The position numbers and the translations under genes are program-made. From assembly GCF_030503895.2 (NCBI RefSeq), contig NZ_CP129970.2:1-64000 (forward strand): a DNA stretch of 64,000 bases, given 5' to 3'. Each line of letters begins with the position of its first letter. Within the stretch, counting starts at the first letter, position 1. Below the pieces are notes generated by a model. That model ran no database searches. It had not been told where the DNA came from and saw only the letters and a list, made by a program, of their open reading frames with translations. Below are positions 1 through 59,666 of the stretch, piece by piece. The stretch comes from Marivirga arenosa. GTDB lineage: Bacteria > Bacteroidota > Bacteroidia > Cytophagales > Cyclobacteriaceae.

Positions 1-2250
1 CTGTGAAACTCAAACATTAGATCTTACAGCTACCATTGGCGGTGGTGCATCAAGTGGTAGCTGGACTATTACTGGAGGTGGTTCAATAGGTACAATAAGT
101 CCAACTACAAATAATGCAGGAAACTGGACTACTACATTTACCCCTTCTGGTACTGCTTATGGTACAGTTACTGCCCAGTTTGAAGCTGCTACAATAAATA
201 GTTGTGCTTCAAATTTTAAAACTTATACCTTTGATGTATTTGAAAACCCAACTGCGGTAATTCCTGCAAACTTTAGTACTTGTGGAGATGCTAACTTCGA
301 TCTTGATGCTACCCTTGGTGGTTCTGCTATTGACGGACAATGGGATGTAATCACGAATGGTAATGCAGCTAATCTGTCTGCTTCCAATACTACTGCTGGG
401 GTGACTACGGCTACTTATACTCCGGATGCCGCAGATTTCAATACCATCATCACTTTCCAATTCACTGCCACTGATCCTAACACTGCTGGACCTTGTGGAG
501 ATAATACCTATACAGTAGATGTTTCAATTGATGAACCTGCAGGTGTAAGTATTTCAACTGCTCCTGTAAATATATGTCAAAACTCAACGATTACGGTTTC
601 TGGTGACTTCTCTGGTTCTGCTACTGGAGCTTCTTGGTCTGAAAATGGTAATGGGTCTTTAACCAATATTTCTACTACGGGTAGTACGGTTACAGCTGAT
701 TATAACCCTACAGTTGCAGATATCGGGAATACTGTAACTTTTACTTTAACTACAAATAACCCTGCTAATACTTGTGGAAGTGTAAGTCAAACAGTAGATT
801 TTATAATTGATGCTCCTGCTACCGCTACTATTACAAATGCTATAGGAACTGAAATATGTGAAACTCAAACATTAGATCTTATTGCAAATATTGGAGGTGG
901 GGCTACTAGTGGAGACTGGACTATTACAGGCGGTGCTACTATTGGAAGTATTGGGGCCACTACTAATAATGCTGGCGATTGGACTACTACTTTCACTCCA
1001 TCTACTACTGCCTATGGTACAGTTACTGCCGAATTTGAGGCATTTACTTCTAATACTTGTTCATCAACTATAGAAGTATTTACTTTTGATGTATTTGAAA
1101 ACCCAACTGCGGTAATTCCTGCAAACTTTAATACTTGTGGAGATGCTAACTTCGATCTTGATGCTACCCTTGGTGGTTCTGCTATTGACGGACAATGGGA
1201 TGTAATCACGAATGGTAATGCAGCTAACCTGTCTGCTTCCAATACTACTGCTGGGGTGACTACGGCTACTTATACTCCGGATGCCGCAGATTTCAATACC
1301 ATCATCACTTTCCAATTCACTGCCACTGATCCTAACACTGGTGGACCTTGTGGAGATAATACCTATACAGTAGATGTTTCAATTGATGAACCTGCAGGTG
1401 TAAGTATTTCAACTGCTTCTGTAAATATATGTCAAAACTCAACGATTACGGTTTCTGGTGACTTCTCTGGTTCTGCTACTGGAGCTTCTTGGTCTGAAAA
1501 TGGTAATGGGTCTTTAACCAATATTTCTACTACAGGTAGTACGGTTACAGCTGATTATAACCCTACAGTTGCAGATATCGGGAATACTGTAACTTTTACT
1601 TTAACTACAAATAACCCTGCTAATACTTGTGGAAGTGTAAGTCAAACAGTAGATTTTATAATTGATGCTCCTGCTACCGCTACTATTACAAATGCTATAG
1701 GAACTGAAATATGTGAAACTCAAACATTAGATCTTATTGCAAATATTGGAGGTGGGGCTACTAGTGGAGACTGGACTATTACAGGCGGTGCTACTATTGG
1801 AAGTATTGGGGCCACTACTAATAATGCTGGCGATTGGACTACTACTTTCACTCCATCTACTACTGCCTATGGTACAGTTACTGCCGAATTTGAGGCATTT
1901 ACTTCTAATACTTGTTCATCAACTATAGAAGTATTTACTTTTGATGTATTTGAAAACCCAACTGCGGTAATTCCTGCAAACTTTAGTACTTGTGGAGATG
2001 CTAACTTCGATCTTGATGCTACCCTTGGTGGTTCTGCTACTGACGGACAATGGGATGTAATCACGAATGGTAATGCAGCTAATCTGTCTGCTTCCACTAC
2101 TACTGCTGGGGTGACTACAGCTACTTATACTCCGGATGCCGCAGATTTCAATACTATTATCACTTTCCAATTCACTGCTACTGATCCTAACACTGGTGGA
2201 CCTTGTGGAGATAATACCTATATAGTAGATGTTTCAATTGATGAACCTGC
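1..2250 (+). repeat. 855-bp in-frame tandem repeat inside the giant adhesin gene
   Basis: Bases 541-1395 and 1396-2250 are two full copies differing at only a handful of positions. A partial preceding copy covers 1-540. The unit is 285 codons, so gain or loss of a copy keeps the frame. Each unit encodes three Ig-like modules beginning PAGVSIS, PATATIT and PTAVIPA. The partial copy is nearly identical to the others from about base 230 onward but clearly diverged in 1-200. That is the expected edge of a homogenised (converted or unequally recombined) tract. The repeat ends near 2250, where the next module begins QASLAPTG. Confidence 0.95.
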
Positions 2251-5200
2251 TCAAGCCTCTTTAGCTCCTACAGGAAATGCAGTTTGTGAAACTGAACCGA
2301 TCGTTTTAGGAGGAACTATCAATAGTGGAGCCTCAACAGGTCAATGGATTATACAATCAGGACAACCTGACCCGAATGCAGAAACTTCCGGCAGCCTTTC
2401 AGCAACCACTAATAATGCAGGAGTATATGAAGCAACATTTACACCAAATGGTACTTATCAGGGAGATGTGATTTTTGAATTTATTGCAATTTCAACTAGT
2501 AGCTGCAGTAATGATACCATTACAAAAACAATAAATGTTAGAGGTTTACCTATTGTTACAAATACTTCAGACGCATTCTGTGAAACTACTGCTGGTGGTG
2601 GAAGTGTAATAGTAGATTTAACCTCTTATAACAATTTTGTAACTAGCGAAACAGGTGTTACAATTGAGTGGTATTCTAATAGTAGTTTAGGAACCCTTGT
2701 TCCTGATGAAACAGCAGTATCAGTGGTAAACAATTCAATTTACTATGCGAAAGTAATCTTACCTACTACCAATTGCTTTGATGTCGCACAAGTTGATTTT
2801 ACGGTTGATCCACAAATCGTTTTAGATGCTGGTGGTGGTGTTTCAAGCAGTGTTGAAATATGTGATGGAGACGTATTAGATTTAGCAAGTATTGCTACTC
2901 CTCCTAGCCAGTCGAGTGCTGATGATTTAATATGGACAACAGATGGAGCTGGTTCATTTGATGATGATACTGCATTAAGACCGATTTATGATCCAGGATC
3001 AGATGATTATACTAGCGGTCCAATAACCTTGAGATTAACTGGGTCAAATGCTGGTTTATGTAGTGATGTATTTGATGAAATAACATTGACAATTAAGCAA
3101 ACTCCAGTAATATCAGCAGCTAACAGTATTAGTCTTTGTTCGGAAGAATTCGCATCAATACCTTTCACTGTAGATGTTACAAATCCTATATTAAATGTAA
3201 ATATTGATGATCCAACCTTAGTACAAGGCGGTATAAGCATTATCGATGGGAAAATAGAATTTACTAGTTCAATAAATACAAGTGGTACTGATAAAATTGG
3301 GGTTATTACATTATCTGCTACTCAGAATGGATGTACTACAATTAAAAGTATTAATCTGACATTAAAAGATAGACCAGTAGTTAATTCTGAAGCAGATGAG
3401 CCAATATTATGTTTCCCTTCAGCAGTAAGCCCAAGAACCTTTACTCATAGTTCAGGTACTGGAACCTTTAATTGGGAAATTACAAATCCTGCATTAATTG
3501 GAGATGCTACACCTACTACGGGAACTGGAAACTTCCCTGGTTTTGATTTAGCAGACAATCAAACTGGTGCTCCTATTGAAGGGTATGTAAAATATTACTC
3601 AGTAAGAAATGGATGCTTAAGCATAGCTGATTCTTTCAAAATCACTTCTAACCCTAGACCCGTTATTCAGAATACTGATGTTACATTCTGTGATGGTGAA
3701 AATGTAAATATTGATTTTATTGATAATGTCGGAGGAACCACTACCTTCGATTGGTCAATAGATAATACTACTATTGGAATTGCATTTCCTTCTGGATCTA
3801 CAAATCAATCTATAACTCCATCAGGCTTTACTGCAAATAACCCATCTAATTCTTCAGATAATGTTGCCATTATTACAGTAATTCCTACTCAAGATGGTGC
3901 AAATGGATGCACAGGGCCAACAAAAACAATCACGGTAACTGTACTACCTAACCCTGTAATGACAAATTCTAATTTTGATTACACTGTTTGTTCAAATGAA
4001 ACATTTGATTTTGTACCTACTGCAAGTATTCCTACCGCTGATTTTGAATGGAATTTAATTTCAGGAAACACTTCCGTTGTGAACGGATTGACCCCGTCAG
4101 GAACTGGTAATATATCTCTTGATTTAGTCAATACTTCAGGTGTTAATCAAGAAGTTGTTTATGAAATCACCCCTAAAAATAGCAGTTGCTTAGCAACTGC
4201 CAACAGTGAGGAATTAACTATAATTGTTAGACCAGAAATTAAATTCGATAATATTAGAGACGAATATTATGTATGTAGTGGTCAGGACTTTGATTTGCCA
4301 ATTAATTTTGTAAATAATCTTACCAATGTTGAATTTGTATGGACAGTATCACCAAATTCATCCGGAGCAACAGATGGAGTAGGTACAACGGTTTCAGGAA
4401 ACTTATCCAATACAATCTCTGGAGAAAGTGATGTAATTCAATACACATTAAACACTAGGTTCTTAGACGGAACGTGCACCGGAGATTCGAAGGTCATAGA
4501 TGTAATTGTTAATCCAAATGCAATTATCGACATCATTCCAATAGCTGATATATGTGAAGGAGATAATGCAATAGTAGAAGCCCAATTACTTAATGGTGCT
4601 TCAAGTGGTGTATGGAGTGGTGGTGAAGGAACATTTACATCTACCTCATCCCCTACTACAACTTATATTCCTGATCCAAACGAATATGGTTTAGATGTAA
4701 CTTTAAGATTTACTGCAAATGATCCTGACGGATCGGGTGTTGCGGGACCTTGTGGAACTGCATTTGATGAAATAACATTTGCAGTTAATACATTACCTAA
4801 TGTCGCAATTACAGAAAATCTATTCCCTAACGATTTATATTGTATCAGAAATGGATTACAAGAACTTACAGCTACGCCTTCAGGAGGAGTATTTAGTGGA
4901 AGAGGAGTAGTTAACAATGGTGATGGAACCTTTGATTTCGATCCAACTATTGCAACTGTTGGTGGCCCATATACATTAACATATACTTACACTAATCCAA
5001 ATGGTTGTGTAAACACAGATGAAGTTATAGTAGAAGTTACAAACGGACCGAATTCTAATTTTGATATGGAAACGGATGATAGTAATGGGTTCTTTTGTTC
5101 AAATGCATTCATTGAATTAGATCCAGATCAAACTGGGGGTACATTCACTGGCCCTGGTATAGAAATCTTAGGAGGGATATCATATTTCAATGCAGCTTCA

Positions 5201-7396
5201 TCAGAAGTTCTGAATCAAGATACTGTTGATATTACGTATACAGTGTTTGAGGATGCTACAAGTTGTTTAGCTGAAACAACCAAAACATTATATAGAATCC
5301 CTGAACCACAAATTACAATTGATTATCAAAACTTATGCGAAATTGATAATGCAGTTCAAATTTTCATAAATCCTGGTTATGATAGTGCTCAAGATTCATT
5401 AATCTCATTCCAATTAGAATATGAAAATTCGCCTAACAGAATTTATGAAGAGGGTCAAATTGAACAGTTTAATTCAGCAGGAGTAAAAAATATTACTATA
5501 ATAGGAACAACCGCATTGGGTTGTACATTTGAAACTACTACTTCTATCAATGTAGGAAATATTCAAAATGTAGATTTCTCATTTACAAATACTAAAACTA
5601 GTAATCCAGGTGAAACCCCTACCGAATTTAGGAATCAATCTGTATTAGATGGTGCTGATTCAATAATTTCATACAGCTGGGATTTTGGTATTCCAGGAAT
5701 TGATACGGATATATCTTCATTAGAAAACCCGAGTTTTAATTATCAAACTGCAGGATCATATCAAGTTGAATTAACTATTGAAACCTTATTAGGATGTACT
5801 GAAACCATTTCCAAAACAGTGGCTATTGTACCCGCAATCAACACCTATCCATATTATGAAACTTTTGATAATAATGCTGGAGGATGGACAACAAATAATA
5901 CAGTAAATGACAGCTTAAGTTCATGGACGTATGGATCAGCAAATGGTGCCTTTATAGGTAATAATGACAATATTAATCCAGGTAACTTCTGGAAAACTGC
6001 TGCTAACGGAAACTTTGGATATTATGAAAATGAAGACTCATATTTAGAAGGTCCTTCATTCGACTTAACTTCTCTTGAAAAGCCAATGATTGCATTTGAT
6101 ATGTGGTTAGATGTAGATGATAGCTTTAGAGCAGGAGCTACAGTTGAATATTCAATTGATGGAGGTTCTACTTGGAATATTTTAGGAGCAGTTGAAGATG
6201 AATTAAATTGGTATAATACTACAAACATATCTGCCATTGGTGGACAAAATGCAAACCCATTAAACTATGCTTGGTATTTTATCGGTGAAGAAAGAAATTG
6301 GGTAAGAGTAGCTCATACCATAGATGAAGATGAAATTACAAATCTTGCAAGCGTTAAATTTAGAATTAACTTTAAAGGTACTTTATTAAATAGTGATCCT
6401 ACTGGTATGGCTATTGACAACTTCTATGTTGGAGAAAGACAAAAATTGGTATTAATAGAGAACTTCACTAATCTAAATGCAACAAATTATACCTCAAACA
6501 GAGCAAATGTTCAAAATCTTAATAGTACTGGTATAGCTAATGACATATTACCAATCAACTTCCACATATCAATTCCGGATCCTGATTCGGTGAATTTGAG
6601 AAATTCAGTTCAAATGGATGCTAGAGCAAGTATATACAGTATTGAGGAAAGCCCTAAAATCGTTATTGATGGAGAAAGATTTAATACCTCAATATTTAAT
6701 TCAGAGGGATTAACGGAAGAATTCTCGAGAAAAATAACTAGAAGGTCATTATTGGAACCAACTAATTTAGTTGACATCATCATTAATGAAGAAGTTGGTG
6801 AAAGCACTATTAGTTTTGATGCTACTTTAAGACCAAATACTGATACTACCAGAAATATGGTATCTTATTTCTTTGTAATTGAAAAATCCACTACTTCGAA
6901 TGGGCTTAATAACATTGTCAGACAAATACTACCAAATATAAACGGAGTTGAATTAGATGATTTAAATGAAACCGTAGTAAGTACTTATGAATGGTTGGTT
7001 GAGCCACTCTATACTAATACAGACTTAGCTATAATAACTGTGGTTCAGGACAGATTATCGAATAGTGTTTTCGAAATTGACATTACCAACATAAATCAAT
7101 TTAAACAATCTTCAAAAATTACTAGTAATTCTAATGCTTTAGAGAATATCAATCTTAACCTTTATCCTAACCCAAGTTCAGGAATTGTAAATCTAAACTT
7201 TAATCAAAGTTTAAAATCAGAGCTAGAAATATTTGTAGTAGACATGAATGGTAAAGTGATTTTAAATACGAAAGCATTGAGAGGAACGAATCATAAAGAA
7301 CTGAATTTAAATGGGGTTTCTTCTGGTGTGTACCATATAATTACAAAAACTTTATCAGGAAATCTCACAAGAAAGAAAGTAGTAATACTAGATTAA
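2..7396 (+). CDS. Giant T9SS-sorted adhesin-like repeat protein (5' end outside window)
   Basis: The frame is open from base 2, so the N-terminus lies upstream; 2464 residues are visible. From the left: Ig/PKD-like modules of about 95 residues, many with a conserved Cys pair. Three of these form a 285-residue super-repeat that is nearly identical between 541-1395 and 1396-2250. More diverged PKD-like modules follow, then a canonical PKD domain near base 5680 (motif SYSWDFG). A carbohydrate-binding/MAM-like segment occupies about 5860-6430, and an Omp28-like segment starts near 6440. The C-terminus (about 7144-7393, with LNLYPNPSSG and ending KKVVILD) is a type A T9SS sorting domain. Family knowledge says such domains direct export across the outer membrane and surface attachment. 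A role in adhesion or gliding is inferred. No enzymatic motif is seen. Confidence 0.9.
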   Translation, partial: CETQTLDLTATIGGGASSGSWTITGGGSIGTISPTTNNAGNWTTTFTPSGTAYGTVTAQFEAATINSCASNFKTYTFDVFENPTAVIPANFSTCGDANFDLDATLGGSAIDGQWDVITNGNAANLSASNTTAGVTTATYTPDAADFNTIITFQFTATDPNTAGPCGDNTYTVDVSIDEPAGVSISTAPVNICQNSTITVSGDFSGSATGASWSENGNGSLTNISTTGSTVTADYNPTVADIGNTVTFTLTTNNPANTCGSVSQTVDFIIDAPATATITNAIGTEICETQTLDLIANIGGGATSGDWTITGGATIGSIGATTNNAGDWTTTFTPSTTAYGTVTAEFEAFTSNTCSSTIEVFTFDVFENPTAVIPANFNTCGDANFDLDATLGGSAIDGQWDVITNGNAANLSASNTTAGVTTATYTPDAADFNTIITFQFTATDPNTGGPCGDNTYTVDVSIDEPAGVSISTASVNICQNSTITVSGDFSGSATGASWSENGNGSLTNISTTGSTVTADYNPTVADIGNTVTFTLTTNNPANTCGSVSQTVDFIIDAPATATITNAIGTEICETQTLDLIANIGGGATSGDWTITGGATIGSIGATTNNAGDWTTTFTPSTTAYGTVTAEFEAFTSNTCSSTIEVFTFDVFENPTAVIPANFSTCGDANFDLDATLGGSATDGQWDVITNGNAANLSASTTTAGVTTATYTPDAADFNTIITFQFTATDPNTGGPCGDNTYIVDVSIDEPAQASLAPTGNAVCETEPIVLGGTINSGASTGQWIIQSGQPDPNAETSGSLSATTNNAGVYEATFTPNGTYQGDVIFEFIAISTSSCSNDTITKTINVRGLPIVTNTSDAFCETTAGGGSVIVDLTSYNNFVTSETGVTIEWYSNSSLGTLVPDETAVSVVNNSIYYAKVILPTTNCFDVAQVDFTVDPQIVLDAGGGVSSSVEICDGDVLDLASIATPPSQSSADDLIWTTDGAGSFDDDTALRPIYDPGSDDYTSGPITLRLTGSNAGLCSDVFDEITLTIKQTPVISAANSISLCSEEFASIPFTVDVTNPILNVNIDDPTLVQGGISIIDGKIEFTSSINTSGTDKIGVITLSATQNGCTTIKSINLTLKDRPVVNSEADEPILCFPSAVSPRTFTHSSGTGTFNWEITNPALIGDATPTTGTGNFPGFDLADNQTGAPIEGYVKYYSVRNGCLSIADSFKITSNPRPVIQNTDVTFCDGENVNIDFIDNVGGTTTFDWSIDNTTIGIAFPSGSTNQSITPSGFTANNPSNSSDNVAIITVIPTQDGANGCTGPTKTITVTVLPNPVMTNSNFDYTVCSNETFDFVPTASIPTADFEWNLISGNTSVVNGLTPSGTGNISLDLVNTSGVNQEVVYEITPKNSSCLATANSEELTIIVRPEIKFDNIRDEYYVCSGQDFDLPINFVNNLTNVEFVWTVSPNSSGATDGVGTTVSGNLSNTISGESDVIQYTLNTRFLDGTCTGDSKVIDVIVNPNAIIDIIPIADICEGDNAIVEAQLLNGASSGVWSGGEGTFTSTSSPTTTYIPDPNEYGLDVTLRFTANDPDGSGVAGPCGTAFDEITFAVNTLPNVAITENLFPNDLYCIRNGLQELTATPSGGVFSGRGVVNNGDGTFDFDPTIATVGGPYTLTYTYTNPNGCVNTDEVIVEVTNGPNSNFDMETDDSNGFFCSNAFIELDPDQTGGTFTGPGIEILGGISYFNAASSEVLNQDTVDITYTVFEDATSCLAETTKTLYRIPEPQITIDYQNLCEIDNAVQIFINPGYDSAQDSLISFQLEYENSPNRIYEEGQIEQFNSAGVKNITIIGTTALGCTFETTTSINVGNIQNVDFSFTNTKTSNPGETPTEFRNQSVLDGADSIISYSWDFGIPGIDTDISSLENPSFNYQTAGSYQVELTIETLLGCTETISKTVAIVPAINTYPYYETFDNNAGGWTTNNTVNDSLSSWTYGSANGAFIGNNDNINPGNFWKTAANGNFGYYENEDSYLEGPSFDLTSLEKPMIAFDMWLDVDDSFRAGATVEYSIDGGSTWNILGAVEDELNWYNTTNISAIGGQNANPLNYAWYFIGEERNWVRVAHTIDEDEITNLASVKFRINFKGTLLNSDPTGMAIDNFYVGERQKLVLIENFTNLNATNYTSNRANVQNLNSTGIANDILPINFHISIPDPDSVNLRNSVQMDARASIYSIEESPKIVIDGERFNTSIFNSEGLTEEFSRKITRRSLLEPTNLVDIIINEEVGESTISFDATLRPNTDTTRNMVSYFFVIEKSTTSNGLNNIVRQILPNINGVELDDLNETVVSTYEWLVEPLYTNTDLAIITVVQDRLSNSVFEIDITNINQFKQSSKITSNSNALENINLNLYPNPSSGIVNLNFNQSLKSELEIFVVDMNGKVILNTKALRGTNHKELNLNGVSSGVYHIITKTLSGNLTRKKVVILD

Positions 7397-9229: not shown

Positions 9230-10420
9230 TTGCAACAGACCGAACAACAAATATTTCTAAATCATATTGCACAAACTTCGCCCTTTCCATTTCTAATTGA
9301 AATTGAAAAAGCAAAAGGAGTTTATCTATATGATAAAAACGGAAAATCCTATATGGATTTAATCTCAGGAGTTGCAGTTAGTAATTTAGGACATCAACAT
9401 CCTAAAGTAATAGAAGCTATAAAATCGCAAGTAGATAAACACCTACATACTATGGTTTACGGAGAGTATGTGCAATCCTCCGTAAACCAATTAGCAAAGA
9501 CTTTAACTTCACACCTTCCCTCCCATCTAAATAGTGTTTATTTCTGCAATAGTGGGGCTGAATCAATTGAGGGAGCACTAAAACTAGCAAAAAGAATAAC
9601 CGGGAGGACAGAATTATTATCATTTAAAGGAGCTTACCATGGCAGTACTCATGGTGCGTTAAGCATTTCATCTAATGAAAATAAGAAATATAGATTTAGA
9701 CCCCTGCTTCCCGATGTAGGATTTCTAAAACTTAATGATTTTGAAGGTTTAGACAGAATTACAACTAAAACAGCTTGTGTAATTATAGAAACAATACAAG
9801 GTGACGCAGGAGTTAGAATTCCACAACAGAATTTTCTAAAAGCACTGAGAAAAAAATGCAATGAAACCGGTACGATACTAATCATGGATGAAATTCAATC
9901 TGGAATTGGAAGGACTGGGAAATTATTCGCATTTGAACATTTTGATGTAGAACCAGATATATTGTGTACTGCAAAAGCATTAGGAGGTGGTTTACCATTA
10001 GGTGCTTTCATAGCCAAAAAGGAGTATATGGATCTATTTACCAAGAATCCTATGCTTGGCCATATTAATACTTTTGGAGGTAATCCAGTTAGTTGTGCTG
10101 CTTCAGCTGCTACATTAGAGGTGATACTAGAGGATGGATTTCTTGAGGATGTGGAAAGAAAAGGGAAAATATTTGAGGATTCAATACGTCATCCCGCTAT
10201 AAAAGAGATTAGAAGAATAGGGATGATGTTTGCAATCGAATTTGACTCAGCTGAAATTGTATCAAAAATAGTTCAGGAATGCTTGAAAAATGGGGTCATT
10301 TGTTTTTGGTTTTTATCTTGTCCAGATAGCTTCCGAATAGCTCCTCCCCTAACCATTAATGATGATGAAATAAATACTGCTTGTGAAGTGATCAATAATG
10401 CGATTAAGAAATCAATATAA
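9230..10420 (+). CDS. Class III PLP aminotransferase (acetylornithine/4-aminobutyrate type)
   Basis: The 396-residue protein is a fold-type I class III aminotransferase. Visible signatures are GVAVSNLGHQHP, FCNSGAESIEGALKLA, DEIQSGIGRTG and the PLP lysine in CTAKALGGGLP (about K249). It begins with TTG at 9230, ten bases after the acyl-CoA-binding protein stop; no in-frame ATG lies near the start, and the family N-terminus (FLNHIAQTS) requires this start. The family includes ArgD, GabT and LysN-like enzymes, and sequence alone does not settle the substrate. No arginine biosynthesis genes are adjacent, so argD is not assigned. Confidence 0.9.
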   Translation: MQQTEQQIFLNHIAQTSPFPFLIEIEKAKGVYLYDKNGKSYMDLISGVAVSNLGHQHPKVIEAIKSQVDKHLHTMVYGEYVQSSVNQLAKTLTSHLPSHLNSVYFCNSGAESIEGALKLAKRITGRTELLSFKGAYHGSTHGALSISSNENKKYRFRPLLPDVGFLKLNDFEGLDRITTKTACVIIETIQGDAGVRIPQQNFLKALRKKCNETGTILIMDEIQSGIGRTGKLFAFEHFDVEPDILCTAKALGGGLPLGAFIAKKEYMDLFTKNPMLGHINTFGGNPVSCAASAATLEVILEDGFLEDVERKGKIFEDSIRHPAIKEIRRIGMMFAIEFDSAEIVSKIVQECLKNGVICFWFLSCPDSFRIAPPLTINDDEINTACEVINNAIKKSI

Positions 10421-10455: not shown

Positions 10456-11124
10456 ATGCAGGAATTAAGCACTTCATATTTTTTAGACGAGAATCAACTA
10501 GAAACTTTAATCAAAAGAATAGTTGAAAACTATAATATTGAATCCTTCCTGAAAAATAAAAATTTAATCCAATTAGCTAATACCGATATTAAAATCAGGT
10601 TTCCATTTTCGTTTAATATCGATAATAACGTTCTAAAAGAATCGGCTTTTATAATCATTCTTGTACATGCCGGTGAAGCTTCTCTAGCAGTATCAGAATC
10701 CGACCAAATAATTGAGCATAAATCCTTTAAAGCTTATATGGTCCGACAAAAACAAGGTAAAAGCCAAATTAAACACCTTAAAACTAAAGGGAAATCAAAA
10801 GCAGGCTCAAGGGTAAGGCTGGCAAGCACAGATCATTTCTTTAATGAAATAAATGATAAATTGAATGAATGGTTGGAGTATTATAACATTGATAGAATTG
10901 CACTAAGTTGTAATAAAACTTTATTCCCCTTTCTATTTAATAGAGAAAATGCCGCTATTGAAAAGGAAGATGAAAGAATTTACAAAATCCCTAAACATAT
11001 TCCTGAGGCTAATTTTGATAATTTATTGCAAATTCATAAATATCTAATTTCAGTGGAAATATTTTATGAAAGCACGTATAATAAAGAAGTAACAGATTTA
11101 TTAATGAATATAGATGACGAATAA
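10456..11124 (+). CDS. Putative VLRF1 (Vms1-like) peptidyl-tRNA hydrolase/release factor
   Basis: The 222-residue protein has no signal peptide. Its core contains VRQKQGKSQ (residues 96-104), followed by KTKGKSKAGSRVRLAST. This pattern of GxxQ plus a basic KGK..AGSRxR stretch resembles the catalytic loop of VLRF1 domains of Vms1/ANKZF1, which are eRF1-related and cleave peptidyl-tRNA on stalled ribosomes. A Bacteroidota-specific bVLRF1 family is known. The next stretch (NDKLNEWLEYYNIDRIALSC) fits the following helix and strand. Activity is inferred from the motif alone; Vms1's ankyrin and VIM regions are absent. It overlaps the next gene by 11 bases, suggesting coupled translation. It could be a degenerate homologue with another role. 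Confidence 0.6.
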   Translation: MQELSTSYFLDENQLETLIKRIVENYNIESFLKNKNLIQLANTDIKIRFPFSFNIDNNVLKESAFIIILVHAGEASLAVSESDQIIEHKSFKAYMVRQKQGKSQIKHLKTKGKSKAGSRVRLASTDHFFNEINDKLNEWLEYYNIDRIALSCNKTLFPFLFNRENAAIEKEDERIYKIPKHIPEANFDNLLQIHKYLISVEIFYESTYNKEVTDLLMNIDDE

Positions 11125-11692
11125 AAAGTTTAATTGGAAAAAGGAATTAATTAGCTGGGCTGTAATGATTGCAGTTTTTGGAACCTTATACTTAACAGGC
11201 CTTCATACACCTGTTATTGGTAAAATTCAATCCTTACTATTATCCACACATTTGATTACACCAGATTTAGACCAGAAAGAGGCTGTAACTTTTAACTTTA
11301 ACGGTATATTAAAATCTTCAGATGGGACGGTAATAAATAGTGAAGAGCTATCCGATAAAACCATATTTATCAACTATTGGGCAACTTGGTGTCCACCTTG
11401 CTTGGGTGAATTACCTCATATAAATAAACTCTATCAACAAGTTAAGTCAGATCCAAATGTAGTTTTTCTTTTGATTTCTAAAGATCAAGATTTTAATAAA
11501 GCAATTCGCTTCATGGATAAAAAGGAATATGACCTGCCTATTTACACTGAAGTTAAGGGCTTTGACAAGCTTAGCTCAAGAGTACTACCTAGTTCTTATG
11601 TTATTAAAAATGGAGAGATTGTGTTTGAAACTGAAGGGATGAGTAATTTCAATACACAAGAATTTAAAGATTTCTTAATCTCCAGATATTGA
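11114..11692 (+). CDS. TlpA/ResA-like membrane-anchored thioredoxin
   Basis: The 192-residue protein has one N-terminal membrane segment (about residues 12-28) and a periplasmic thioredoxin-fold domain. The active site is WATWCPPC (C93, C96) and the cis-Pro loop is RVLPSSYVI. The family reduces or oxidises periplasmic cysteines, commonly for cytochrome c maturation or copper-centre assembly. The ATG at 11114 lies inside the end of the preceding VLRF1-like gene. The partner protein cannot be told from the neighbours. Family assignment is secure; substrate is unknown. Confidence 0.9.
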   Translation: MTNKKFNWKKELISWAVMIAVFGTLYLTGLHTPVIGKIQSLLLSTHLITPDLDQKEAVTFNFNGILKSSDGTVINSEELSDKTIFINYWATWCPPCLGELPHINKLYQQVKSDPNVVFLLISKDQDFNKAIRFMDKKEYDLPIYTEVKGFDKLSSRVLPSSYVIKNGEIVFETEGMSNFNTQEFKDFLISRY

Positions 11693-55779: not shown

Positions 55780-56958
55780 ATGAAAAATAAACTTTTATTA
55801 GGCTGCCTCTGCTTATTTGCTGCATGCAGCTTATTTCAGAAAACCGAAATTGACTTAAAATATCCTCCCATTTGGGAGCATAATTTCAACGTAGGCTATT
55901 TCTCAACAATTGAACCGATTCTTCATGAAAATAAAGTCATTTATTCAGGACTGGATGAGAAAAAAAATGATTTCTCCGCCAATAGTACCTTAGAAGCCTT
56001 TGACAAGAAGAATGATAAATTAATATGGAAATGGGAGGATAATGTAATGTCAAATTCTGAGCAATTTGTTTTAGCAAGTAACTATTTCTTTAGAGATCAC
56101 ATTCTGTATATTTCCACTAGATGGGATTACGCTATTAATTTAAACAATGGCAAAACAGAGTTCAGCAATAACCAAGACAAGCTTAATGGTGTTGATTTCT
56201 TTGGAAATAATAAAAAGCTGTTTACGAGCTATGTGAAGCAAGATGGCTCCTCCACAACAGTAGAATACACTAATTTTCAAAGCTTTGACTGGGATATTCT
56301 ATTTCAAAAAGAGAATTCAGACACCTCAATTCACTATTTTAGGTACTTTTTATTTGATGAGACAAGACCTTCCTATTTATACGTACCTTATTCAAAATGG
56401 AATGGAACAGCCAGTAGACCCAATTTGCTAATATACGACCTGAATGAAAACAAGATAATATTTGACAATGAGCTAGATGTAGTCTCTGGATCAAGATTTA
56501 TTGACTACAAACCCATCATGCAAGTAGATAAGATTTATTTATCCTTGAATGGTCATATAGCTTGTATAGATAAAGAGACTTCGGCAGTTTTATGGCAACG
56601 CGAAACAGTTGGTAACAGCAGTAGATCAGGTATTATGTATGCAGACAATAAAATCTTTGTCAATACAGAATTTCAGCTCTATGCGCTGGATGCGGAAACA
56701 GGTAATATCTTATGGCAAATAGATAGTAGTGCCGGTAGTAGAATGCAAGAGCATAAAGGAGTGGTGTATTATACAGATGGCATTTCACTGCGTGGAGTTG
56801 ATGCTGTTTCCGGAGAAGTACTCTTAGAGGTGGAAGCACCTTCCAGAGCTACTGATGATGGCGCTTTCTTTCAACCAGTACTGACCATAGACCATGAAAA
56901 TGACAGGATTTATACCGCCAGTTATACACATGCCTATTGCTATCCAACTTTGAGATGA
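55780..56958 (+). CDS. PQQ-like beta-propeller lipoprotein, copy 2
   Basis: The 392-residue paralogue has the lipobox LFAACSLF. The N-terminal region (IDLKYPPIWEHNFNVGYFS and after) and the middle (about residues 90-275) are different from copies 1 and 4, while STLEAFDKKNDKLIWKWED and the C-terminal third from about SSRSGIMYADNK on are shared. Blade motifs are the same as in copy 1. It begins three bases after the duplicated lipase tail stop. As a divergent copy with intact reading frame it is presumably functional. Function is unknown. Confidence 0.85.
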   Translation: MKNKLLLGCLCLFAACSLFQKTEIDLKYPPIWEHNFNVGYFSTIEPILHENKVIYSGLDEKKNDFSANSTLEAFDKKNDKLIWKWEDNVMSNSEQFVLASNYFFRDHILYISTRWDYAINLNNGKTEFSNNQDKLNGVDFFGNNKKLFTSYVKQDGSSTTVEYTNFQSFDWDILFQKENSDTSIHYFRYFLFDETRPSYLYVPYSKWNGTASRPNLLIYDLNENKIIFDNELDVVSGSRFIDYKPIMQVDKIYLSLNGHIACIDKETSAVLWQRETVGNSSRSGIMYADNKIFVNTEFQLYALDAETGNILWQIDSSAGSRMQEHKGVVYYTDGISLRGVDAVSGEVLLEVEAPSRATDDGAFFQPVLTIDHENDRIYTASYTHAYCYPTLR

Positions 56959-56974
56959 AAAGCAGAGAGTAGAA

Positions 56975-57136
56975 AATAGTCAAATGATCAATAACATGAG
57001 AAATATTGATGTTTATAATGCCAATGGCGTTAACCATTTGGAAGTAGGCAATCATCCAAGAATGACTGAAATATTAAATCAGATTTTTGATAGACCGGAA
57101 GGATCAGTTTTTTTTAGAGAAGAAAGAAGAAGATGA
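56975..57136 (+). pseudogene. Lipase C-terminal fragment 2 (duplicated tail)
   Basis: The second duplicated tail: from the ATG at 56984 it encodes 50 residues, identical to fragment 1 through NQIFDR but with a different end (PEGSVFFREERRR). The stop overlaps the start of lipoprotein copy 3 as ATGA, the usual sign of translational coupling. The open frame and the coupling argue that it might be translated. Confidence 0.72.
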
Positions 57137-58311
57137 AGTTTTATTTAATTCTATTTTACACGAGCTTTTTATGCTCGTGTAATTTTTTTGAAAGCGCAAA
57201 TCCTGAAGTTAATTACCCTCCAATTTGGGAGTATGATTTTAATATTGGGTATTTTTCTAGCATTGACCCTATTTTATATGTAGATAAAGTTATTTATTCA
57301 GGACTTGATGAAAAAAGAAAAGATTTTCTTGCCAATAGTACCTTATTGGCGTTTGACAAAGAAAACGGGATTATTAAATGGGATTGGAGTGATACGATTG
57401 ACCCTCCCGATGATAAATTTCATTATGAAAGTCAATATGTAGTAAATAATAATCAACTATTCATTTCGACTGGTGCGAATTACAGCATTGATTTACAAAC
57501 AGGTAAAACTCTATTTTCGGACGAAAACAGAGATGAACCAAGCGGAGGTTTAATGTTTTATAACCACAAGAATATGTTATACAGTTCTTTTCGAAATGAG
57601 CTCAATACTTTAATAAAATATACAGACTTTGATAGTTTTACTTGGACTACACTTTTTCAAGTTGAACGAAATGATAGTGTTGCTTATACATTTTACAATA
57701 TACTACCAGATACTTATCAGGAACAAGTGCTTCACTTTCCAATAACAAAATACGAGAACGACAAATTACTTCCCGGAATCATTAAGTACGATTTAAATTC
57801 AAACAGTATAATAAAAGAAAAAATTATTGAAGTTTCAGAGTCTGGACGTTTTATTGACAACTTTAGTACTATTATCGATAATAAAATTTTTCTTCCGTGT
57901 AATGGTATTGTCATTTGTGTTAGGTCAAGTGACGGAGAATTAATATGGGAAACCCCAGTAAATGGAAATACTAGCCGCTCTGGCATCATGTATGCAGACA
58001 ATAAAATCTTTGTCAATACAGAATTTCAGCTCTATGCGCTGGATGCGGAAACAGGTAATATCTTATGGCAGATAGATAGTAGTGCCGGTAGTAGAATGCA
58101 AGAGCATAAAGGAGTGGTGTATTATACTGATGGCATTTCACTGCGTGGAGTTGATGCTGTTTCCGGAGAAGTACTCTTAGAGATGGAAGCACCTTCCAGA
58201 GCTACTGATGATGGCGCTTTCTTTCAACCAGTACTGACCATTGACCATGAAAATGATAGAATTTATACCGCCAGTTATACACATGCCTATTGTTATCCAA
58301 CTTTGAGATGA
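57133..58311 (+). CDS. PQQ-like beta-propeller lipoprotein, copy 3
   Basis: The 392-residue paralogue has the lipobox FLCSCNFF. Its N-terminal blade (YPPIWEYDFNIGYFSSIDP) is shared almost base for base with copy 4, but its middle region (about residues 75-275, for example GANYSIDLQTGKTLFSDENR) is unlike the other three. The constant C-terminal third begins around SRSGIMYADNK. A hairpin in the signal-peptide codons is followed by seven T, so transcription may be attenuated there. Function is unknown. Confidence 0.85.
   Translation: MKFYLILFYTSFLCSCNFFESANPEVNYPPIWEYDFNIGYFSSIDPILYVDKVIYSGLDEKRKDFLANSTLLAFDKENGIIKWDWSDTIDPPDDKFHYESQYVVNNNQLFISTGANYSIDLQTGKTLFSDENRDEPSGGLMFYNHKNMLYSSFRNELNTLIKYTDFDSFTWTTLFQVERNDSVAYTFYNILPDTYQEQVLHFPITKYENDKLLPGIIKYDLNSNSIIKEKIIEVSESGRFIDNFSTIIDNKIFLPCNGIVICVRSSDGELIWETPVNGNTSRSGIMYADNKIFVNTEFQLYALDAETGNILWQIDSSAGSRMQEHKGVVYYTDGISLRGVDAVSGEVLLEMEAPSRATDDGAFFQPVLTIDHENDRIYTASYTHAYCYPTLR
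57156..57189 (+). promoter_or_regulatory. Hairpin plus T run at the start of copy 3 (possible attenuator)
   Basis: TTACACGAGC (57156-57165) pairs perfectly with GCTCGTGTAA (57173-57182), loop of seven, followed by TTTTTTT (57183-57189). The form is that of an intrinsic terminator, but it lies inside the signal-peptide codons. Relative to copy 1, one T-A pair is changed to C-G on both arms. Confidence 0.5.
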
Positions 58312-58327
58312 AAAACTGGGGGAAGAA

Positions 58328-58483
58328 AATAGTCAAATGATCAATAACATGAGAAATATGGATGTTTATGATGCCAATGGCGTCAACCATTTGGAAGTAG
58401 GCAATCATCCAAGAATAACTGAAATATTAAATCAGATTTTTGTTTTAGGAGAAAACACTCCTTTTCATAGACCTATTAGATGA
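58328..58483 (+). pseudogene. Lipase C-terminal fragment 3 (duplicated tail)
   Basis: The third duplicated tail: from the ATG at 58337 it encodes 48 residues, MINNMRNMDVYDANGVNHL, then EVGNHPRITEILNQIF and a distinct end VLGENTPFHRPIR. It is closer to the real lipase at YDANG than fragments 1 and 2. The stop lies four bases before copy 4. Same interpretation as the other fragments. Confidence 0.72.
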
Positions 58484-58487
58484 TTTT

Positions 58488-59666
58488 ATGTGGAAAATGA
58501 TATTAATATTTAGCTGCATGAGCTTAATTAGCTCATGTCACTTGTTTCAAAAGCCAGAGAACAAATTGTTATACCCTCCAATTTGGGAGTATGATTTTAA
58601 TATTGGGTATTTTTCTAGCATTGACCCTATTTTATATGTAGATAAAGTTATTTATTCAGGGCTGGATGAGAAGAAAAATGACTTCTCAGCCAATAGTACT
58701 TTGGAAGCGTTTGATAAAAAAAACGGAAGATTAATATGGAAATGGGCTGACAATATTCCAGAATCCTTTGATAAATTCAAACATACAGATACATGGCATA
58801 TTCATGCAGGCTTCCTCTATATTTCTTCGGGTTGGGAATATGCAATCAATATAATGAATGGAACTACACGCTTTAGTCATAATTCTCAATTCTTTGGAGG
58901 AAAAAGTATTGTCGGTTACGAAGAAGTAATATTTACTAGATTTACATTTGAAGATTATTCGCGAGAAACAGTATATTTTTCGAAATCTGATTTTAATTGG
59001 AACGAATTAATTGCCTTTAATAACAATGATTCGATAAGATACTACATAGACCATTTGATAATTGATGGAGTTGACTTATTGATTCCTGTATTAAGAGGAA
59101 GACAAAATTTTGAACCAGGAGAACTTATATTTTTAAAGTACAATATTTTTAAAAAACAATTCACAGCACAAGACACAATAATTTTGGATAAAGAGCGAAA
59201 TAGATTCATTGATGCTCCTCCAGTCCTGACCGAAAATTCTCTTTATCTATCCTTGAATGGAACTGTTGTGTGTGTTAATAAAAATAATTTCACTATAATT
59301 TGGCAACGCGAAACAAATGGTAACAGCAGTAGATCGGGCATTATGTATGCAGACAATAAGCTCTATGTCAATACAGAATTTCAGCTCTATGCACTGGATG
59401 CGGAAACAGGTAATATCTTATGGCAGATAGATAGTAGTGCCGGTAGTAGAATGCAAGAGCATAAAGGAGTGGTGTATTATACTGATGGCATTTCACTGCG
59501 TGGAGTTGATGCTGTTTCCGGAGAAGTACTCTTAGAGGTGGAAGCACCTTCCAGAGCTACTGATGATGGCGCTTTCTTTCAACCAGTACTGACCATAGAC
59601 CATGAAAATGATAGAATTTATACCGCTAGTTATACACATGCCTATTGTTATCCAACTTTGAGATGA
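58488..59666 (+). CDS. PQQ-like beta-propeller lipoprotein, copy 4 (mosaic)
   Basis: The 392-residue paralogue has the lipobox CMSLISSC. Its sequence is a mosaic. Signal-peptide codons resemble copy 1; about 58571-58660 (YPPIWEYDFNIGYFSSIDP and after) is essentially copy 3; from KKNDFSANST on it is nearly identical to copy 1 (visible difference: AGFL for ADLL). The frame is intact and all blade motifs are kept. The stop is followed immediately (no gap) by the beta-barrel gene. Confidence 0.87.
   Translation: MWKMILIFSCMSLISSCHLFQKPENKLLYPPIWEYDFNIGYFSSIDPILYVDKVIYSGLDEKKNDFSANSTLEAFDKKNGRLIWKWADNIPESFDKFKHTDTWHIHAGFLYISSGWEYAINIMNGTTRFSHNSQFFGGKSIVGYEEVIFTRFTFEDYSRETVYFSKSDFNWNELIAFNNNDSIRYYIDHLIIDGVDLLIPVLRGRQNFEPGELIFLKYNIFKKQFTAQDTIILDKERNRFIDAPPVLTENSLYLSLNGTVVCVNKNNFTIIWQRETNGNSSRSGIMYADNKLYVNTEFQLYALDAETGNILWQIDSSAGSRMQEHKGVVYYTDGISLRGVDAVSGEVLLEVEAPSRATDDGAFFQPVLTIDHENDRIYTASYTHAYCYPTLR

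Follow-up and report, generated by a model that had tools for sequence, protein, structure and literature searches.

The locus and its genes

The window analyzed here is a stretch of 64,000 nucleotides from Marivirga arenosa (contig NZ_CP129970.2, positions 1 to 64,000 of the forward strand). The gene under study, bVLRF1, is an ORF with an ATG start and a TAA stop whose 222 codons specify 222 aa plus the stop, and it sits in the order citrate synthase, acyl-CoA-binding protein, class-III aminotransferase, bVLRF1, TlpA-like protein, desaturase. The features that matter for what follows are these:

9230..10420, plus strand: class-III aminotransferase (ArgD-like), a neighbor only (PF00202; TIGR00707 at 381.2 bits, below its cut-off of 410.05)
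10456..11124, plus strand: bVLRF1 gene, a Vms1-like release-factor homologue (ORF; PF18826; Vms1 profile match; AF2 model)
10456..10635, plus strand: N-terminal extension, about residues 1-60 (no Pfam match; Vms1 chain superposition)
10744..10767, plus strand: putative catalytic-loop motif RQKQGKSQ (GxSQ), residues 97-104 (conservation, Vms1 alignment)
10786..10818, plus strand: basic stretch KGKSKAGSRVR, residues 111-121, a predicted rRNA contact after the loop (conservation, Vms1 alignment)
11114..11692, plus strand: TlpA/ResA-like thioredoxin-fold gene (Redoxin, AhpC-TSA and Thioredoxin_8 matches)

Elsewhere in the window, 55780-59666 (plus strand) holds three consecutive 392-aa ORFs with a mutual identity of 55-58%, a tandem triplication of which the one member scanned (55780-56958) matches a PQQ/BamB-type beta-propeller. 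At 1-7396 (plus strand) there is a very large surface-protein ORF, with a GTG at 401 (2331 aa) and open to the left edge of the window, that carries PKD-like modules and a secretion-system C-terminal sorting domain.

Family assignment and catalytic loop

The earlier note had read this gene as a bacterial Vms1/VLRF1-like protein, and the family profile, a residue-level alignment with Vms1 and the predicted fold all agree with that identity. In the Pfam scan the 222-aa protein scores 117.8 bits for PF18826 (bVLRF1; cut-off 27, E 4.8e-34), over residues 66-202 and model positions 2-142 of 145, and the same family is matched by 43/43 homologues scanned; no NCBIfam model matches the protein at E<=1. 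When the PDB was searched with the homologue profile, the matches at E<=1 were three distinct sequences, all of them Vms1 (E 2.1e-9 to 5e-9), and the single window protein already found Vms1 at E 9.1e-7 to 2e-6. The gene has a single match in its own genome (3.94 Mb), namely itself, and a genome-contig scan with the single protein as query confirmed 0 relatives. Identity to relatives in both homologue alignments is 29-57%. Judged by its sequence, the window protein is an ordinary member of the named family bVLRF1, and its closest solved relative, by sequence and predicted fold, is yeast Vms1.

Both motifs lie where the earlier note had placed them, and the glutamine that it proposed to mutate is Q104. 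In the alignment with Vms1, whose residue numbers were assigned by counting back from Q295, R288, G292, S294 and Q295 of Vms1 fall on R97, G101, S103 and Q104 of the window protein, and Y285 and H279 fall on Y94 and H88. Conservation was counted in 61 homologues, that is, the window protein and 60 loci found in the phylum and family sample searches (alignment A1 holds 43 of these sequences; partial or contig-edge matches, e.g. G331 and G377, lie outside the set). R97, G101, Q104 and Y94 are present in 61/61, and S103 and H88 in 60/61. All six residues are invariant in a second alignment of 69 rows that partly overlaps the first set (A2, which omits 12 of 80 loci: eight whose ORFs fall outside the range of 190-280 aa, and L249, L280, L287 and L294), and 20 of the 25 invariant columns of this alignment fall within residues 88-122. 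The earlier note had regarded poor conservation of the GxxQ residues as telling against its reading; among the orthologues examined, G101 and Q104 are invariant.

The sequence GKSQ at residues 101-104 corresponds to the GxuQ loop (u, a tiny residue) that, with its conserved glutamine, was defined for bVLRF1 and from which catalysis was predicted (PMC6514570). The homologous loop of yeast Vms1 has been dissected by mutation: R288A and G292A/G293A abolished hydrolysis, Q295L, G292A and deletion of S294 strongly impaired it, Y285A caused a partial defect in cells, and H279A, H283A, R284A and T286A were wild-type-like (PMC5989216). Within the basic stretch, which aligns with the KGK..AGS.R stretch of Vms1, G112, K113, S114, G117, S118, R119 and R121 are present in 61/61 homologues and K111 and A116 in 60/61. 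An rRNA-binding role for this stretch would follow by analogy with the prediction made in PMC6514570.

Predicted fold and N-terminal extension

The AlphaFold2 model of the window protein (69 rows) has a pLDDT of 88.8 and a pTM of 0.84, and is weakest at the loop, where residues 101-110 and 111-120 average 48 and 52 and where pLDDT falls under 50 at residues 102-105 and 108-112; the last two residues score 53. In a Foldseek search the four best PDB matches are all Vms1 entries (E 1.2e-5 to 9.0e-4); eRF1, aRF1, Pelota and others come next, at E above 0.001. VIA-align superposes the model on Vms1 with Z 11.8 over 166 residues at 3.9 A, and on eRF1 chains with Z 8.3-10.8 over 108-125 residues, and identity to Vms1 over the structurally aligned residues is 14-19%. 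By this model the window protein has the RNase H-like fold of the eRF1 domain 2/Vms1 type, which is the outcome that the earlier note had anticipated from a structural comparison with Vms1, having named an unrelated fold as grounds for giving up its reading.

No Pfam family matches residues 1-64 at E<=0.1. This N-terminal extension seems from the model to be at least partly common to the window protein and Vms1, because Vms1 chains start aligning at model residue 5-8 and eRF1 chains only at about 55-64. Moreover, 157-169 Vms1 residues are aligned within model residues 5/8-205; as residues 61-205 number only 145, some of the aligned residues must fall in the extension; VIA-align gives ranges and no residue pairs, and the sharing of the extension is the weakest of the family traits found in this protein. 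The predicted structure is in line with the N-terminal extension described as shared by bVLRF1 and eukaryotic VLRF-1 (PMC6514570). Taken by sequence and model, the architecture would be one catalytic domain of the eRF1-domain-2/Vms1 type preceded by a short N-terminal extension.

Gene neighborhood

The coupling to a TlpA-like thioredoxin gene that the earlier note had remarked upon is real in the window, where the TlpA-like ORF starts at 11114, so that its first 11 nt are shared with the end of bVLRF1, stop codon included; in two further loci (L047 and L058) 8 nt are shared, and bVLRF1 and tlpA are therefore probably co-transcribed in these three. As a feature of the family the coupling did not hold. 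The TlpA cluster adjoins bVLRF1 in 3/60 neighborhoods, all of the genus Marivirga, and lies two genes off in one more (L091), and a tblastn search at E<=1e-8 placed a TlpA gene near bVLRF1 in 6/140 loci, all with the Marivirga-type gene order and two of them (L058 and L217) apparently from one genome, and did not find it near bVLRF1 in Marivirga atlantica (L219). Because it is limited to Marivirga-type loci, the arrangement looks like local history rather than function, and the TlpA-like gene is probably no functional partner; as a functional clue it was rejected.

Neighborhoods were counted for 60 of the 61 loci (L051 was omitted, its bVLRF1 ORF not having been kept by the gene caller), and neighbor clusters were named from one scanned member each. 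A HEAT-repeat protein lies immediately upstream on the opposite strand in 24/60, a 204-aa protein without family assignment directly downstream in 16/60, and an HrpB-type helicase and an X-Pro peptidase-like protein within five genes in 22/60 and 15/60, respectively. Contexts vary between genera, no RQC gene was recognized among the commonest neighbors in these 60 neighborhoods, and the idea that a conserved neighbor reveals the function of bVLRF1 was rejected, none of the commonest clusters indicating RQC.

Within Marivirga (the window against L047, L058 and L215-L219), bVLRF1 diverges faster than its neighbors, at about 54-66% identity over the aligned parts; in the same loci citrate synthase retains 88-93% and the aminotransferase 69-80% identity to the window.

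Distribution and co-occurrence with RqcH and Pth

Genomes positive for PF18826 number 5/296 in the phylum sample, 8/295 in the class, 47/194 in the order and 69/148 in the family, the four samples overlapping one another. A degenerate-DNA scan of GTDB genomes confirmed 256 relatives, and among the best 80 of these the named genera include Marivirga, Roseivirga, Fulvivirga, Echinicola, Belliella, Pontibacter and Rufibacter, which we take to be Bacteroidota; the top relatives in named genomes, again among the best 80, are mostly Marivirga.

The own genome carries an NFACT (RqcH-type) gene at C1:3049440-3050987, whose product matches NFACT_N and NFACT-R_1 above the Pfam cut-offs and stays below those of the NCBIfam models RqcH_arch (72.7 vs 400) and EfbA (136.5 vs 1025). 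A profile of 38 family NFACT proteins (alignment A3, out of 80 fetched regions) aligns over positions 7-515 with solved RqcH (7aqc, presumably that of B. subtilis) at E 2.6e-57. Its (D/E)R motif aligns with the 'DR' of solved RqcH, which we take to be D97/R98. The possibility that NFACT loses the arginine of this motif in bVLRF1 genomes was rejected, as it is kept in 40/40 proteins from genomes with bVLRF1 and 40/40 from genomes without. At the preceding position, 36 of the former have E and 4 have D, whereas 29 of the latter have E, 10 have D and one has N; the acidic position is thus mostly Glu (65/80) in this Bacteroidota family (L104-L183). NFACT bit scores also look lower in bVLRF1-positive genomes, for which shared descent could account.

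Counted at E<=0.001, and with p-values that ignore kinship, NFACT is present in 7/8 genomes with bVLRF1 versus 53/287 without in the class sample (Fisher p 7e-5; 7/8 vs 47/287 with the Pfam cut-off only), in 42/47 versus 105/147 in the order (Fisher p 0.008), in 5/5 versus 219/291 in the phylum (p 0.25), and in 66/69 versus 74/79 in the family, where 140/148 genomes carry it overall (p 0.44). A sensitive NFACT profile recovered a contig-end fragment in one more family genome (G373), which brings the bVLRF1-positive count to 67/69, and recovered none in the five bVLRF1-negative family genomes that had no Pfam NFACT match. In the class sample 235/295 genomes have no NFACT match, and one of these, G643, has bVLRF1. 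On an NFACT tree of 40 bVLRF1-positive and 40 bVLRF1-negative hand-picked genomes the presence of bVLRF1 needs at least 10 changes, so that the independent bVLRF1/NFACT events are few.

There are exceptions in nearly complete genomes. In G351 and G602 (99% complete, one genus, g195) and in G643 (100% complete, 40 contigs) bVLRF1 is present and neither Pfam nor clade-specific profiles find NFACT; congeners have kept NFACT, namely G409 (genus of G351 and G602; NFACT and bVLRF1) and G833 (genus of G643). G564, G575, G592 and G331 also have no NFACT match, but their genomes are fragmented or less complete. bVLRF1 is found mostly in RqcH-bearing genomes, and the association is suggestive, not strict, and confounded by descent. 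The RqcH-type gene of the own genome and the preponderance of RqcH-bearing genomes among carriers of bVLRF1 are the new observations here. For comparison, rqcH has been reported in 404/1,956 FCB-group genomes (PMC11633108).

Pth (PF01195) was found in 80/80 genomes tested, 40 with bVLRF1 and 40 without. Replacement of Pth by bVLRF1 was accordingly rejected; bVLRF1 adds to Pth, and nascent-chain release has a second route.

A candidate release factor and its alternatives

We regard it as fairly probable that bVLRF1 acts beside RqcH and Pth as an auxiliary release factor, its substrate being peptidyl-tRNA stuck on the 50S subunit. This account is based on the family, the predicted fold, the retention of residues essential in Vms1, and the presence of a full-length RqcH-type gene and Pth in the genome. 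Once a stalled ribosome has been split, bVLRF1 would enter the vacant A site of a 50S subunit on which peptidyl-tRNA has remained, the basic residues after the loop would hold 23S rRNA, and the flexible RxKQGxSQ loop would reach the peptidyl-transferase center, where Q104 could promote release of the nascent chain. Beside it, RqcH would extend the chain with alanine, and Pth could release chains whose ester bond has become exposed. That bVLRF1 binds ribosomes, releases chains and is functionally linked to RqcH is inferred, and the peptidyl-tRNA hydrolase activity that the earlier note proposed is a presumptive one.

Several observations weigh against this account. The literature found holds no activity, ribosome binding or genetics of a bVLRF1; the link to RqcH is confounded by descent, with no enrichment in the family or phylum samples and three near-complete genomes that have bVLRF1 and no NFACT match; the own NFACT protein scores below the RqcH_arch and EfbA cut-offs; the window protein is a single domain without the added domains of Vms1; no RQC gene was recognized among the commonest neighbors; and Pth, present in every genome tested, offers another release route.

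A narrower reading, that bVLRF1 is the dedicated termination factor of bacterial RQC, ending RqcH tailing on the 50S subunit in Cytophagales and giving bacteria an RqcH and Vms1 pair like that of eukaryotes, is held tentatively, as possible rather than probable. According to PMC11317155 no dedicated bacterial RQC termination factor is known, and termination of tailing was stated to be unknown in 2021 (PMC8012679, PMC8786322). bVLRF1 could be the dedicated release step that has been missing from an RQC-like bacterial clean-up pathway: as the bacterial sister of Vms1, found mostly in genomes that carry RqcH, it is an obvious candidate for ending bacterial RQC. The pairing with RqcH raises its interest, since the question of how bacterial RQC ends becomes directly testable, and work on yeast Vms1 already shows which loop residues to mutate (PMC5989216).

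The alternatives overlap in part with the main account, in chemistry and in dependence on RqcH, and their probabilities are not to be read as adding up to one. The first concerns chemistry, and holds that bVLRF1 is a tRNA endonuclease that frees the chain by cutting the 3' CCA end instead of hydrolyzing the ester. Vms1/ANKZF1 has been described as a tRNA endonuclease cleaving the CCA-3' end (PMC11317155), and the same loop residues would take part; PMC5989216 and PMC6514570, however, favor peptidyl-tRNA hydrolysis, with the GxuQ loop as a release-factor motif. The sequence cannot discriminate between ester hydrolysis and CCA removal, and we consider the endonuclease somewhat unlikely.

Independence from RqcH is the substance of the second alternative, by which bVLRF1 is a general single-component rescue factor for stalled or split ribosomes and a back-up to trans-translation, ArfB and Pth. 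Single-component release factors in specialized contexts have been proposed (PMC6514570), the gene context has no link to RQC genes, and G351, G602 and G643 have bVLRF1 where no NFACT was found, so that the pair G351/G602 set against G409 is a natural test case for an RqcH-independent function. That RqcH is kept in most bVLRF1 genomes of the class (7/8) and order (42/47) samples, and that the nearest characterized relative, Vms1, works on RQC 60S complexes (PMC5989216), argue the other way and make this alternative unlikely.

It is very improbable that bVLRF1 plugs the A site without catalysis, as the Balon hibernation factors do, which have the eRF1 central fold. Balon chains are among the fold matches (VIA-align Z 8.6-9.0), and the baeRF_family10 profile is sub-threshold in the window protein (19.8 bits vs a cut-off of 27.1) and matched at E<=0.01 in 6/43 homologues, but G101 and Q104 are invariant, whereas the glutamine is missing from most baeRF-1 families (PMC6514570), a single Pfam domain was found, and Vms1 is the superior match by sequence and fold. 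Least credible of all is a functional coupling to the TlpA-like thioredoxin, for instance in rescuing translation that stalls during oxidative or secretion stress; the 8-11 nt gene overlaps speak for it, and against it stands the confinement of TlpA near bVLRF1 to Marivirga-type loci.

Comparison with known systems

The auxiliary release factor that we favor sits most plainly within the bVLRF1 family, with which the window protein shares the profile match, the GxuQ loop, the conserved arginines after the loop, a Bacteroidota host and a single domain with an N-terminal extension; nothing tested distinguishes it. The earlier note had called this family known but little studied, and the literature agrees: PMC6514570 describes the clade, names it and derives eukaryotic Vms1 from it, and PMC10934728 has the name in a single place, as the Pfam label of a soybean gene. 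bVLRF1 is untreated in the available text of PMC11312545, PMC12453390 and PMC10039652, and no experimental study of bVLRF1 or paper joining it to RqcH was found in a literature scope that lay outside bioRxiv and most subscription journals. Bacterial and archaeal VLRF-1 members have been described as standalone and independent of other RQC components (PMC6514570), unlike the situation in the own genome, which has an RqcH-type gene.

Svetlov and colleagues, as cited in PMC11317155 and PMC11633108, are said to have placed Pth in the RQC of Bacillus subtilis. By analogy this Pth would do the same job, chain release from 50S complexes, and it is able to release RQC chains in that species (PMC11317155), but it belongs to another protein family (PF01195). 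The baeRF-1 families, Balon included, share the predicted fold of the eRF1 central domain; they have mostly lost the catalytic glutamine (PMC6514570), which the window protein keeps, and the window protein shows a recognizable central domain only.

With Vms1/ANKZF1 the window protein shares the aligned loop residues, the predicted eRF1-domain-2 fold and the part of the N-terminal region that can be superposed. The domains added in Vms1/ANKZF1 (Rei1 zinc finger, ankyrin repeats, VTC and VIM) have no Pfam match in the 222 aa, where PF18826 alone is above cut-off. Since PMC6514570 derives eukaryotic Vms1 from bVLRF1, the function of bVLRF1 would show what the eukaryotic pathway acquired, and a role in ending RqcH tailing would parallel that of Vms1 acting after Rqc2 on the 60S subunit.
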